DNA from: Gammaproteobacteria bacterium
GTDB lineage: Bacteria > Pseudomonadota > Gammaproteobacteria > Steroidobacterales > Steroidobacteraceae
DNA: 64,000 nucleotides
NCBI GenBank assembly: GCA_025359565.1
Contig: JANYFY010000020.1
Location: 1 to 64,000, forward strand
Direction of reading: 5' to 3'
Shown: positions 29,391 through 64,000 of the stretch, piece after piece
Layout: each line of letters opens with the position of its first letter
How positions within the stretch are numbered: position 1 is the stretch's first letter
Translations under genes and position numbers: made by a program
The notes under the pieces: generated by a model
What the model saw: the letters and a program-made list of their open reading frames with translations, nothing else
Told to the model about the DNA's origin: nothing
The model's database searches: none

Positions 29391-29676
29391 GATACTTAAA
29401 AGTCCTCGCTTGCTACCGCGATCAGTCTAGCGCTAACTTGCTTGCAAAGACCACCGCCGCGACAGCGTTCCACCGCTCCGTGTACTGCGCCATGAACATC
29501 GGGTGGCGGTCAAGCCGTGGTCCCTGCCGTTTAACAGCCGCATTATGTGATCCACAGCCCATTTTTACGCCAATCCGCTGCAGAGCGACCCCCCTCAGCC
29601 ACTTTGCGCGCTTGGTTTAATGCACTCACCCCAGAATAACTACTGGGCCGTTTACAACCGAAAAGGGTGATTGCCA

Positions 29677-31428
29677 ATGGACACGACTAAGACCGGATTG
29701 CGAGCATGCACGCTACTAGGCGCATTGGCGACTATTTTTGCCACTGCCGCCACCACCGCTGCCGCCGCTACCGCCGCTACCGTCAACTCCACCGCTGCCG
29801 CTGCAACGACTGCAGCCCCGCTAACAAATTACATCGTCGAATCGCACGCCGACCTGAATGTGGCGAATGCGGTGCGCGCTGTCGGCGGCCGTGTCACCCA
29901 CAATCTCCCCATTGTAAACGGAGTATCGGCACAACTTTCAGCAAAGCAAGCCGCACGCTTACGCACCCATGGGAACCTCCAGCTGTTTACCGATGCCCCA
30001 TTAGCCACTCAATCAATCGCGACCACGGCCGCACCAGCGACCGCCGCGGTGAGCACGGTGCTCGATTTCTACCAACGAAAAATGCTAGGGGTGAGTCAAC
30101 TAGCGTCACAAGGAATTAACGGCAATGGTGTATTGGTCGCCGTCGTCGACAGCGGCCTTTTGCAGAACAGCAACGGTGTGGCGCACGATCTAAATGGCAA
30201 TTACCGAATCGCCGCTCAGTACGATGCAATTAACAACATCTTGAACGATCCCGCTCATCCTTGTCTAAACACGCCGTGCGCTAACGATAGTTATGGTCAC
30301 GGCACACACATAGCGGCTTTAATCTCAAGCTCAACTTATCGGAATACCGCCGGTGAACCAGAAGGTATCGCTCCAGGGGTACGAGTAATTAACGTCAAAG
30401 CTTTCGATGGCACGGGAACCGGAACGTACGCGACTGTGCTTAACGGTTTGAATTGGATATACAACAATCGCAGTACCTACGGCAACATCCGCATCGTTAA
30501 TATGTCCTTTGGTGCTGCACCGCAGTCTTTTTATTGGAACGACCCGATAGACCAAGCCGTGATGAAGCTTTGGCAGGTAGGCATCGTGGTTGTCACATCA
30601 GCAGGTAACTTTGGCCCGAAACCCCAAACCATCGCGGTACCCGGTAACACACCCTATGTGATCACCGTAGGAGCGATGACCGATAATTTCACCCCCAATG
30701 ATCCCACTGACGATGGCGTGACGTCATTCTCATCTGCGGGACCAACCTACGAGGGTTTTGTCAAACCCGATGTCGTCGCACCTGGCGGTCACCTCTCCGC
30801 CCTCATGAAAAAAGGTGATCAATTACTGGCGACCGCCTACCCACAGTTCGCCTCAACGGTATCTAATCAGTTCATTATGTCTGGCACTTCGCAGTCCGCC
30901 GCAATCACCTCGGGCGTCGTAGCGTTGATGTTGCAAGCCAACCCATTCTTAACTCCTGACCAAGTGAAGTGCCGACTGCTCGCGACCGCCGACGCGGCCA
31001 TGGGCAAGAATGGCAAGGCCTCCTATACTATTTTTCAGCAAGGAGCCGGTCGCATCAATGCGTACGCTGCGGTGTATAGCCAGCAGTCGAATTGCGCCAA
31101 CCAGGGGCTGAATATCGCTGCCGACCTTGCGGGTAGCCAGCATTTCGGCGGACCCGTGCGACAGAATCGCACCACGGGTGCTTTCTACACCGTGGATGGC
31201 AGTGGTAACACCCAAAACACCGATGGCTATCTTTGGAATCAGTCTTACACCAAAACCCAAGGGTATTTATGGAATAACGGATATTTATGGAACAACGGTT
31301 ACCTATGGAACAATGGGTATCTTTGGAACAACGGATACTTGTGGAATAACGGATATCTCTGGAATCAGAATACTGTAGCTCCTGCCTCATCGAAGGCTGG
31401 AATGGAGTCATGGAACGCCCAGGAATGA
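29677..31428 (+). CDS. secreted subtilisin-like serine peptidase with GYLWNN repeats
   Basis: The 583-residue protein is an exported S8 peptidase. An Ala/Thr-rich leader ends near residue 45 and an inhibitor-like prodomain (LTNYIVESHADLNVANAVRA, GGRVTHNLPIVNGVSAQLSA) precedes the catalytic domain. The triad is Asp158 (VVDSGL), His208 (YGHGTHIAAL) and Ser405 (MSGTSQSAA). The C-terminal region is a run of eight hexapeptides, mostly GYLWNN, at 31225-31368, after which it ends in SSKAGMESWNAQE. The ATG at 29677 is favoured (AAGGGTGA spacing); TTG 29671 is an alternative. Function of the aromatic/Asn repeats is unknown, perhaps wall or substrate attachment. Single gene, divergent from the nitrilase operon. 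Confidence 0.9.
   Translation: MDTTKTGLRACTLLGALATIFATAATTAAAATAATVNSTAAAATTAAPLTNYIVESHADLNVANAVRAVGGRVTHNLPIVNGVSAQLSAKQAARLRTHGNLQLFTDAPLATQSIATTAAPATAAVSTVLDFYQRKMLGVSQLASQGINGNGVLVAVVDSGLLQNSNGVAHDLNGNYRIAAQYDAINNILNDPAHPCLNTPCANDSYGHGTHIAALISSSTYRNTAGEPEGIAPGVRVINVKAFDGTGTGTYATVLNGLNWIYNNRSTYGNIRIVNMSFGAAPQSFYWNDPIDQAVMKLWQVGIVVVTSAGNFGPKPQTIAVPGNTPYVITVGAMTDNFTPNDPTDDGVTSFSSAGPTYEGFVKPDVVAPGGHLSALMKKGDQLLATAYPQFASTVSNQFIMSGTSQSAAITSGVVALMLQANPFLTPDQVKCRLLATADAAMGKNGKASYTIFQQGAGRINAYAAVYSQQSNCANQGLNIAADLAGSQHFGGPVRQNRTTGAFYTVDGSGNTQNTDGYLWNQSYTKTQGYLWNNGYLWNNGYLWNNGYLWNNGYLWNNGYLWNQNTVAPASSKAGMESWNAQE
31225..31368 (+). repeat. 18-bp tandem repeat encoding GYLWNN
   Basis: Eight 18-bp units in frame: GYLWNQ, a diverged SYTKTQ, five GYLWNN and a final GYLWNQ. 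Synonymous changes between units (TATTTA, TACCTA, TATCTT, TACTTG) show protein-level selection after expansion. Confidence 0.97.
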
Positions 31429-31453
31429 GCGGAACGCCCAGGAATGAGCGTTC
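31412..31453 (+). repeat. 19-bp perfect tandem duplication with hairpin at subtilase 3' end
   Basis: GGAACGCCCAGGAATGAGC occurs twice in tandem (31412-31430, 31431-31449) across the stop codon. The second copy can pair GGAACGC with GCGTTCC (31447-31453) around a 10-nt loop. There is no T-run, so a terminator role is uncertain. Confidence 0.75.
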
Positions 31454-60881: not shown

Positions 60882-61829
60882 ATGAATAGGCCTGCTTTAA
60901 GAATCGCGACTCGTAAAAGCCCGCTGGCTTTATGGCAGGCGGAACATGTGTCGTCCTTGCTCCGTCAAGCATACCCAGGTCTTGTAGTTGAACTCGTACC
61001 CCTGTCGACCAAGGGCGATCTCATCCAGGATCGCAGTTTGGCGGCCATCGGTGGCAAAGGTCTTTTCATCAAAGAACTGGAAGTCGCGATTGAAGCGGGA
61101 CATGCCGATATGGCTGTGCATTCGATGAAAGATGTGCCCGGCGAATTACCGGAAGGTTTTATGATCGGTGCAGTCCTACCGCGAGTCGATCCCCGCGACG
61201 CGTTGATTATGCGAGAGGGCGGAACGCTTAATGATTTGCCGAAAGGCGCACGGGTGGGCACCTCTAGTTTACGCCGCCAAGCGCAATTGCTCGCGGTCCG
61301 ACCCGATTTAAATATTCAAGCACTGCGCGGAAATGTCGATACTCGCTTGGGGCGTCTCGACAAGGGCGAGCTAGAGGCTATCGTACTCGCGTGCGCGGGG
61401 TTAATTCGTCTCGGCTGGGAGTCGCGCATAACTGCGCGCCTCGATTCTAAGGTGTGCTTATCCGCCGTGAGCCAAGGGATCATCGGGATTGAATGCCGCG
61501 CCGATGATGCGGCCACGTTGCACGCCTTACAGCCACTCAATCATTCGGCCACTCGTTCCGCCATGGATGCCGAGCGGGCGTTTTCCGGCTATTTGGGCGG
61601 AAGCTGCCAATCGCCAATTGCCGCGTATGCAGAGATAACCCAAGGGCAATTGTCCGAAAAACAATTGACGCTGCAAGGCCTCGTGGCTGAACCCGACGGT
61701 TCCCGCTTACTACGCGACTCTCTGGTGGGCTCCGCCAAAGATCCCCTGGCCTTAGGCGTAGCACTCGCCAAGCGCGTATTCGCAGCCGGTGCAGGGCCGC
61801 TCCTGGAGCGACTGCGCCACGTGCAGTGA
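60882..61829 (+). CDS. hemC: hydroxymethylbilane synthase
   Basis: HemC polymerises four porphobilinogens into hydroxymethylbilane for tetrapyrrole synthesis. The 315-residue enzyme has RIATRKSPLALWQAEHVSSL, DRSLAAIGGKGLFIKELEVA, MAVHSMKDVPGELPEGF (catalytic Asp in the MKD loop), RVGTSSLRRQAQLLAVRPDL and the cofactor-binding Cys242 (YLGGSCQSP). The ATG at 60882 gives standard length; the longer upstream frame overlaps the preceding gene. The stop overlaps hemD (GTGA), as usual. Confidence 0.97.
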   Translation: MNRPALRIATRKSPLALWQAEHVSSLLRQAYPGLVVELVPLSTKGDLIQDRSLAAIGGKGLFIKELEVAIEAGHADMAVHSMKDVPGELPEGFMIGAVLPRVDPRDALIMREGGTLNDLPKGARVGTSSLRRQAQLLAVRPDLNIQALRGNVDTRLGRLDKGELEAIVLACAGLIRLGWESRITARLDSKVCLSAVSQGIIGIECRADDAATLHALQPLNHSATRSAMDAERAFSGYLGGSCQSPIAAYAEITQGQLSEKQLTLQGLVAEPDGSRLLRDSLVGSAKDPLALGVALAKRVFAAGAGPLLERLRHVQ

Positions 61830-62698
61830 CATTGCCCGGCCCAGTGAAATTGTCCCGCCCAGTGAAATTGCGACTTCTGAAGGTCGGGGTCTTGGTCACG
61901 CGGCCAGAGGCCCAAGCGACGGCTCTATGCGAACTACTCGAAGCCCAAGGGGCTAAAACTTATCGCTTGCCGGCTTTTGAAATTAAACCCCTGAGCGTCA
62001 CCTCGTCACAGAGCGCCATGCTTAGTGCGCCCAGCGCGTTCAGCCCGCTCAGTGCGCCTAGTGCGCTCAACGATCTCGCACGCTTCGACTTAGTTATTTT
62101 TACCAGTAGCAATGCTGTGAAATTCGGCGCCCACTTGCTGCCCCCCGCGTACCCACAGAAATCCGCTATCGCCCGCACGATGAAGGTCGCAGCCCTGGGA
62201 CCTGCGACTGCGCGTGCACTCGCGGATAGGGGCATTCACCCCAGCATTCAATCTCAGGGCCCGTATGATTCAGAAGGCTTACTCGCTCATCCTGAAATCG
62301 CGCAACTCAAATCTGCAAAAATATTAATTATCAAAGGTCGAGGTGGCCGCGAACTTCTCGCTCAAGAATTGCAAGCGCGCGGCTCGCAAGTGGAAACTGC
62401 CGAAGTGTATCAACGGGTAAATGCAACACCCGACGAGGCCGCCCTCAACACTGTGCTGGAAAACTTTTCTACTCACGCCATTCAAGTCGTTATTGCCAAT
62501 AGTCTTGAAACCGTAAAGGCGCTTTTGCAATTTGCAACCCCCTCTCTAGCACTCGCGTTCAACGCAGTGCATTGGTTAGTCCCCAGTCAACGCGTGGCCG
62601 ACGGGGCTCGTGAACTGGGGCTACAAGCGCCGCTAATAGTGGCAGCGTCCGCTGAAGATCACGCCTTAGTTGCCGCGATCATTTTATGGCGCTCTTGA
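61826..62698 (+). CDS. hemD: uroporphyrinogen-III synthase
   Basis: HemD closes hydroxymethylbilane to uroporphyrinogen III. The 290-residue protein has the two-lobe pattern: VGVLVTRPEAQATALCELLE, RFDLVIFTSSNAVKFGAHLL, MKVAALGPATARALADRGIH, YDSEGLLAHPEIAQLKSAKI and KILIIKGRGGRELLAQELQA. Starts are ambiguous: GTG 61826 (overlapping the hemC stop) and two further in-frame GTGs at 61844 and 61862 created by an 18-bp tandem duplication. A second duplication encodes LSAPSA repeats inside the first lobe. The 3' end overlaps the opposing reductase gene by 40 bp. Homology starts at LLKVGVLV, so the extra N-terminal residues are probably non-essential. Confidence 0.93.
   Translation: MTLPGPVKLSRPVKLRLLKVGVLVTRPEAQATALCELLEAQGAKTYRLPAFEIKPLSVTSSQSAMLSAPSAFSPLSAPSALNDLARFDLVIFTSSNAVKFGAHLLPPAYPQKSAIARTMKVAALGPATARALADRGIHPSIQSQGPYDSEGLLAHPEIAQLKSAKILIIKGRGGRELLAQELQARGSQVETAEVYQRVNATPDEAALNTVLENFSTHAIQVVIANSLETVKALLQFATPSLALAFNAVHWLVPSQRVADGARELGLQAPLIVAASAEDHALVAAIILWRS
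61831..61866 (+). repeat. 18-bp tandem duplication at hemD start
   Basis: ATTGCCCGGCCCAGTGAA and ATTGTCCCGCCCAGTGAA are consecutive 18-bp units (two mismatches), each with an in-frame GTG. They add six residues and duplicate a potential start codon. Confidence 0.9.
62021..62068 (+). repeat. LSAPSA-encoding repeat inside hemD
   Basis: Two near-identical blocks (encoding LSAPSAF and LSAPSAL) are separated by SP in the first lobe, between the FEIKPLSV strand and the LARFDLVIF strand. An in-frame duplication in an otherwise conserved enzyme. Confidence 0.75.
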
Positions 62699-63730: not shown

Positions 63731-64000
63731 ATGCGCCCAGTATCGATCATGGGTTGTGGATACACCGGACTGCGGTTAGCACGGCGATTTCAAGCCATGG
63801 GCGCTTCTGTCACCGGTTTTGCCACTCGCCCAGAAAGTCTTTCGGCTATAAGCGCGGCAGGGGTCAGCGCCCATGCGTTAAATCTAGAAACCCCGCTCCA
63901 GGGCCCAAAGCTAGATTTTACCGGACATTTAATCTATTACTCGGTACCTCCCGGCACCAATACGCAGCCCGGCGCCAATACGCAGCCCGGCGCAAGCACC
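63731..64000 (+). CDS. Rossmann-fold NAD(P)-binding protein, partial
   Basis: The open frame runs off the right edge (90 codons). It begins MRPVSIMGCGYTGLRLARRF followed by QAMGASVTGFATRPESLSAI, a Rossmann GxGxxG variant (GCGYTG) of the NAD-dependent epimerase/YeeZ group. LIYYSVPPGTNTQPGANTQP contains an 18-bp tandem duplication (63950-63985). The catalytic part lies outside the window. The gap to the divergent reductase gene is only 25 bp. Confidence 0.8.
   Translation, partial: MRPVSIMGCGYTGLRLARRFQAMGASVTGFATRPESLSAISAAGVSAHALNLETPLQGPKLDFTGHLIYYSVPPGTNTQPGANTQPGAST
63950..63985 (+). repeat. 18-bp tandem duplication (PGTNTQ/PGANTQ)
   Basis: Consecutive 18-bp units starting CCCGGC encode PGTNTQ and PGANTQ, with a third partial unit at the window edge (PGAST). 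The unit lies inside a loop after the second Rossmann strands. Confidence 0.85.

Follow-up and report, generated by a model that had tools for sequence, protein, structure and literature searches.

S8 subtilases with a hexad-repeat tail are linked in the genome to Reg_prop sensor genes

Bacteroidetes hybrid two-component sensors carry Reg_prop/Y_Y_Y double propellers (PMC3243724). Their domain order, Reg_prop, Y_Y_Y, a transmembrane segment (TM) and HisKA/HATPase/REC, is repeated in the kinase-type genes that we find next to a family of tailed S8 subtilases, and in both settings the sensor gene sits beside a degradative enzyme. Unlike in the Bacteroidetes systems, the neighbor here is a tailed protease rather than a glycan locus, and the output is REC-Hpt together with REC-GGDEF-EAL, or GGDEF directly. 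The same sensor architecture is known from Gammaproteobacteria, in GdpX2 and GdpX3 of Xanthomonas oryzae (Reg_prop-Y_Y_Y-GGDEF; PMC6637768) and in the HtsH hybrid kinases of Lysobacter (PMC8463545); the accessible portions of these two reports mention no tailed subtilase partner, and the former, in its accessible portion, lists the function of Reg_prop double-propeller sensor domains outside Bacteroidetes as unknown. On the protease side, the nearest solved structure to the subtilase studied here is 3afg (phmmer E=7e-43), a subtilisin-like serine protease that shares its catalytic domain, Asp-His-Ser order, motifs and possession of a C-terminal extension, but that aligns only to residues 65-472, leaving the hexad tail and the WxxE cap without a counterpart. 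PorZ is a propeller protein that works with the peptidase-like PorU at the envelope as a component of Bacteroidetes secretion. This pairing resembles the one described here, and as far as the accessible record of PorZ goes it has neither a kinase nor a GGDEF output, so we treat the likeness as a lead. What is already known, then, is the S8 family and the sensor architectures (PMC3243724, PMC6637768, PMC8463545); what is new is the hexad tail and its linkage to sensors, and the main new fact is the genomic linkage of tailed subtilases to Reg_prop sensor genes. Our searches of the literature and profile databases returned no description of either, no occurrence of the motif strings, no paper tying subtilases to Reg_prop operons and, in keeping with the preliminary description, nothing relevant to the motif's function; because most subscription journals lie outside the scope of these searches, this absence is not proof of novelty.

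The window, by which we mean the whole 64,000-nucleotide stretch of DNA analyzed, contains one such subtilase gene with the following features:

29677..31428, + strand: S8 subtilase gene, an open reading frame of 583 amino acids from the ATG at 29677
29677..29769, + strand: signal-peptide-like N-terminus, MDTTKTGLRACTLLGALATIFATAATTAAAA, read by eye from the sequence, end approximate
29830..29988, + strand: putative inhibitor-I9-like propeptide region, residues ~52-104 (the 3afg alignment starts at residue 65)
30121..31011, + strand: subtilase catalytic domain (Pfam, residues 149-445)
31090..31224, + strand: conserved linker, CANQGLNIAADLAG..HFGGP...FY, with invariant columns in alignment A3
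31225..31368, + strand: hexad tail of eight in-register units, GYLWNQ, SYTKTQ, five GYLWNN and GYLWNQ
31369..31425, + strand: C-terminal cap, NTVAPASSKAGMESWNAQE, the window's form of the family ending W-V-x-x-E

Membership of this protein in peptidase family S8 is secure, as PF00082 matches residues 149-445 at E=2.6e-44 with 152.1 bits, above the curated cut-off of 21.8. The catalytic triad is intact (D158 in DSG, H208 in GHGTH, S405 in GTSQS) and invariant in alignment A2; proteolytic activity is predicted. Identity as a T7SS mycosin (TIGR03921) was rejected, the protein scoring 111.1 bits against an NCBIfam cut-off of 278.75. The subtilase is apparently secreted, judging by its N-terminus; an in-frame TTG at 29671 is a possible alternative start. 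An Ala/Thr-rich stretch of low complexity at 29746-29823 (TRF period 9/18) directly follows the signal-peptide-like start and probably links it to the propeptide, for which Pfam reported no match to I9 itself. The linker ahead of the tail has invariant columns C2 A3 N4 G6 L7, A11-G15 and H18-G21 in A3 and is found in most tailed relatives too, and behind the tail follow 19 residues closing with ESWNAQE. The stop codon is spanned at 31412-31450 by a perfect tandem duplication of 19 bp (GGAACGCCCAGGAATGAGC, 2.1 copies), such that the cap's WNAQE-stop is copied downstream, out of use.

The tail itself spans 144 bp, or eight 18-bp in-frame units, at exactly the position at the subtilase C-terminus where the preliminary description had placed it. 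Trp is present in 7/8 hexads, with a run of six Trp at a spacing of 6 after the catalytic domain; the second unit, SYTKTQ, has kept the register and its Tyr and lost the motif and Trp. TRF calls the array at 31264-31364 (period 18, 5.6 copies, 79% matches). Among the five GYLWNN units, pairwise codon identity at positions with synonyms is 34%, against a random expectation of 40.5 +/- 7.2% drawn from the gene's own codon usage, and the seven Trp units differ pairwise by a mean of 17.5%, 0% and 55.6% at the first, second and third codon positions, respectively. Synonymous variation among the units is therefore real and close to saturated. Since the codons are as different as random draws and the hexads are near-identical as protein, the residues are under selection, as had been proposed from the single gene, and the units are not recent copies. 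Two further 18-bp tandem repeats are called by TRF in the window, at 61824-61871 and 63950-63993.

Searches for tailed S8 proteins within the organism's own phylum place such tails on subtilases of many genomes of the same order and of a few elsewhere in the class, with about 4-13 Trp units in a row. The repeat is thus neither unique to this genome nor neutral in its substitutions, the two observations that would have spoken against the preliminary description, and the repeat number, which it had proposed to compare between strains, does vary among the relatives. Each protein has its own uniform unit type, and the types vary from protein to protein (GYTWSQ, GYLWSD, GYVWAD/NYVWAD, GLLWND, AFMWDE, AYLWFD). 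In 426 Trp units, whose Trp is fixed by the mode of collection, Gly occupies position 1 in 86%, Tyr position 2 in 77%, Leu/Thr position 3 in 73%, Ser/Thr/Asn position 5 in 84% and Asp/Gln/Asn position 6 in 81%. Of the 461 Trp-Trp gaps, 360 measure exactly 6 and 408 (89%) a multiple of 6; gaps of 12 and 18 residues are in-register hexads without Trp. Within 52 arrays, mean amino-acid identity is 0.84 and mean codon identity 0.57 versus 0.46 expected; the arrays of L006, L015 and L078 show recent unit duplication, and those of the window, L031 and L076 are fully saturated. The tail is a clean case in which residues stay constant within an array while their codons diverge to saturation, and in which lineages differ in unit type. 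Codon sharing between adjacent units falls below the random level in L047, L031 and similar arrays (0.24 vs 0.56; 0.20 vs 0.50), possibly through selection against slippage. The tail of L025 alternates strictly between Trp hexads and Trp-less GGVNAN-type hexads (GYIWTD/GGVNAN), a 12-residue double unit, and in L034 a masked base near subtilase residue 436, in the tail region of a metagenome contig, leaves the last unit unreadable.

The 54 tailed subtilases fall together within the S8 tree. Mapping presence or absence of the tail onto an 89-row catalytic-domain tree takes just two label changes if L025, which has a tail with alternating Trp, is scored as tailless, and tailed S8s in the sample have essentially one origin. 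The window protein (row L052_0) is the sister of L004 inside a 49-row tailed clade (SH-aLRT 99), and we suggest that the hexad tail marks one clade of secreted S8 subtilases. A second tailed branch (L028, L030, L031, L032, L177) has GYLWSD/AYLWSD units, is often present as tandem paralogues and lacks the W-V-x-x-E ending in those members whose C-terminus is complete. No tailed relative was confirmed in phages and viral contigs, which held only untailed or distant subtilases, and plasmids held subtilases of <60% identity only, none covering 80% of the query. GHVWHL repeats in Burkholderia H74 proved spurious, since they are out of frame with the longest open reading frame at that place (904 aa), and class- and phylum-level tail-HMM matches L041-L043 and L048-L050 are low-complexity or frame-shifted readings rather than subtilases.

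An ending of type [WD][VNLI]xx[EQ] (cap W-V-x-x-E) follows the tail in 33/53 tailed proteins. A repeat bracketed by a conserved linker and a C-terminal W-x-x-E cap could simply stabilize the mature protease or help to secrete it, with no ligand of its own, much as the beta-rich C-terminal domains of other subtilases do. The flexible copy number would agree with such a structural role, as would the group of L004, the window's nearest relative, whose eight hexads are degenerate and conserved in length (GYIWNK TTATNA GFVLNQ GYVWNK SATWNA GTLFNQ GYVWNK GYVWNK). Yet the tailless S8s of the same genomes manage without a tail, and both homogenization within a protein and lineage-specific unit types exceed what a generic cap needs, so we regard this role as unlikely.

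The genomic setting of the tailed genes was absent from the preliminary description and is visible only in relatives. Clustering of the genes around tailed relatives, done with no prior assumption, brought out one gene family that is found at 27 of the examined loci. By Pfam, the recurring neighbors encode Reg_prop + Y_Y_Y + HisKA + HATPase + REC + Hpt or Reg_prop + Y_Y_Y + GGDEF, and a further recurring gene for a REC/PAS-GGDEF-EAL protein is usually present beside the sensor gene. A Reg_prop propeller-sensor gene lies within 5 kb of 27/38 tailed S8 genes (L084, with a degenerate tail, counted among them) versus 1/42 tailless S8 genes (Fisher 1.8e-11), a value that overstates independence because the tailed S8s are one clade and the genomes are related. 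The control comprised 42 S8 genes of relatives and the window's own genome under the same test and, being taken from the best 30-plus family matches of 24 genomes, is a sample rather than a census. The usual order is the S8 gene, a ~1500-aa Reg_prop/Y_Y_Y/HisKA/HATPase/REC/Hpt gene and a ~715-aa REC-GGDEF-EAL gene, all on one strand and a few bases apart; the alternative is S8 followed by Reg_prop-GGDEF. In 4/7 sensors scanned, a hydrophobic transmembrane segment directly follows Y_Y_Y (~790-856), which would place the propeller outside the cytoplasm. The sensor neighbor is missing in 11/38 tailed genes, the window's included, some of them at contig ends; the GYLWSD branch (L028-L032), for which, as for L177, no adjacent Reg_prop gene was found, and extra paralogues in G044, G057 and G750 also have no sensor neighbor.

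The association extends to whole genomes. A relative of the window subtilase at E<=1e-20 is present in 16/60 related genomes, and Reg_prop, at any level, in 16/16 of these versus 10/44 of the rest (Fisher 3.6e-8, in genomes that are related). Sensors similar to the window genome's own (E<=1e-60) occur in at least 3 of the 44 genomes without a subtilase relative, a lower bound from a search that scored at most 12 candidates per genome. Within the window's genus, subtilase and similar sensor are found in the same six genomes (G003, G009, G010, G013, G014, G018). Conceivably, the block was simply inherited in one clade with no functional partnership, the tail being a low-cost repeat kept by slippage, and the essentially single origin of tailed S8s in the sample is what this account would expect. 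Against it, the arrangement extends to further families of the class (L104, L105), its microsynteny surviving at 43-51% protein identity across families. Co-occurrence is not explained by adjacency alone, since the sensors found in G000, G040, G044 and G057 are located apart from the subtilases, and saturated codons with fixed residues exclude slippage alone. Such hitch-hiking is already disfavored, and we consider it highly improbable.

The window gene is itself an orphan. Its neighbors, an amidohydrolase/nitrilase-like gene on one side and one for an M20-type peptidase on the other (names that rest on sequence reading), both lie on the opposite strand, and there is no adjacent sensor gene on the same strand that would form an S8 - Reg_prop - GGDEF/EAL operon. 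Its own genome has two Reg_prop-GGDEF genes on contig C20. One of these (C20:70944-74261) overlaps by one base with a PAS-GGDEF-EAL gene behind it, and its product is the ortholog and sister (SH-aLRT 99) of the sensor that is S8-linked in G034. G034 also carries the window protein's closest subtilase (53%). The simplest reading is that the window subtilase moved away from its sensor.

With tailed genes usually beside sensor genes, and co-occurring with them in 16/16 sampled genomes, the tailed protease appears to belong to a sensing system not described before. We tentatively propose that the tail is a conserved beta-type repeat of this S8 clade and that the protease works outside the cytoplasm as the partner of a Reg_prop sensor and a GGDEF-EAL protein, setting phosphorelay or c-di-GMP output. 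The Reg_prop + Y_Y_Y sensor, a hybrid histidine kinase or GGDEF protein, would set that output together with the GGDEF-EAL protein, and protease and sensor would meet in the envelope and affect one signal. The protease could, for example, cut or present something that the propeller reads, or its proteolytic state could itself be sensed. Stacking of the hexads, each a YxW strand with an N/D/Q-G turn, may build a regular aromatic surface by which the protease docks on the sensor or is retained at the envelope; the two genes are no longer neighbors in the window's organism, and there the partners would act in trans. That protease and sensor are functional partners in the envelope is fairly likely, and a beta-type docking or retention element is a plausible role for the tail. 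The tailed family is a testable candidate for the input of Reg_prop sensors, or for a component that prepares that input.

Matrix production is commonly governed by c-di-GMP. The c-di-GMP genes might do no more than co-regulate matrix and protease, with rows of Trp and Tyr holding the protease on exopolysaccharide, cell wall or outer membrane. A fixed Trp, a mostly conserved Tyr, small polar residues and a variable copy number would suit such an avidity binder, and Reg_prop sensors in Bacteroides recognize oligosaccharides (PMC3243724). The tail has no Pfam match to a carbohydrate- or cell-wall-binding family, however, and glycan binding alone leaves the tight propeller-sensor linkage unexplained; on balance we doubt it.

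The beta stack and the cell-wall or polysaccharide binding suggested in the preliminary description are putative. AF2, given a shallow alignment, reached a mean pLDDT of 35.5 for the whole protein (4 sequences) and 48.6 for the C-terminal 112 residues (36 and 49 when rounded), and the YLWN strands parted by NG turns that it drew twice have a pLDDT too low to rely on. The parts that stand are selection on the protein, relatives with variable copy number and the lack of a described function. A mixed tail query found no match in the PDB at E<=10. The left-handed beta-helix hexapeptide repeat, [LIV]-[GAED]-x2-[STAV]-x, was rejected for a unit that reads G-Y-[LT]-W-[STN]-[DQN] with fixed Trp, and a Pfam scan of the window protein and tails returned no hexapeptide family. 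Mimicry of propeller strands, suggested by GxLW in both tail and Reg_prop, had no Pfam support (nine tails, no PF07494 match at E<=10) and was left as a short-motif coincidence. Completion of a missing propeller blade was likewise set aside, as motif counts are alike, mostly 10-14 in linked sensors and 12 and 15 in unlinked ones.

Multi-copy pheromone precursors have units that are uniform within a protein and different between proteins. The tails share this pattern, and the linked gene encodes an envelope sensor, which raises the idea of a multi-copy peptide-signal precursor, from which the subtilase itself or some sister protease would cut identical hexapeptides for the linked propeller to read. 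In one version the protease would carry its own signal, the subtilase freeing its tail hexapeptides as a lineage-specific cue that sets c-di-GMP, which strikes us as a long shot. Core and propeller distances correlate (r=0.71), in favor of the proposed partnership of protease and sensor, and a first partial Mantel test gave tail/propeller covariation at p=0.02, a signal that was gone with the cytoplasmic part as an added control; with core and cytoplasmic part controlled, tail-unit and propeller distances correlate at 0.18 (p=0.07) overall and 0.09 (p=0.22) in the kinase type. These values give no clear sign that tail type specifically follows the propeller, which counts against the main proposal as well. 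Trp is also fixed across the clade, we found no precedent for Reg_prop reading peptides, and Trp-less units keep the six-residue register, which suits a fold at least as well. A precursor of either kind is very unlikely. For the proposed beta-type repeat, unit identity with saturated codons and Trp spacings that are multiples of 6 in 408/461 cases fit a periodic fold.
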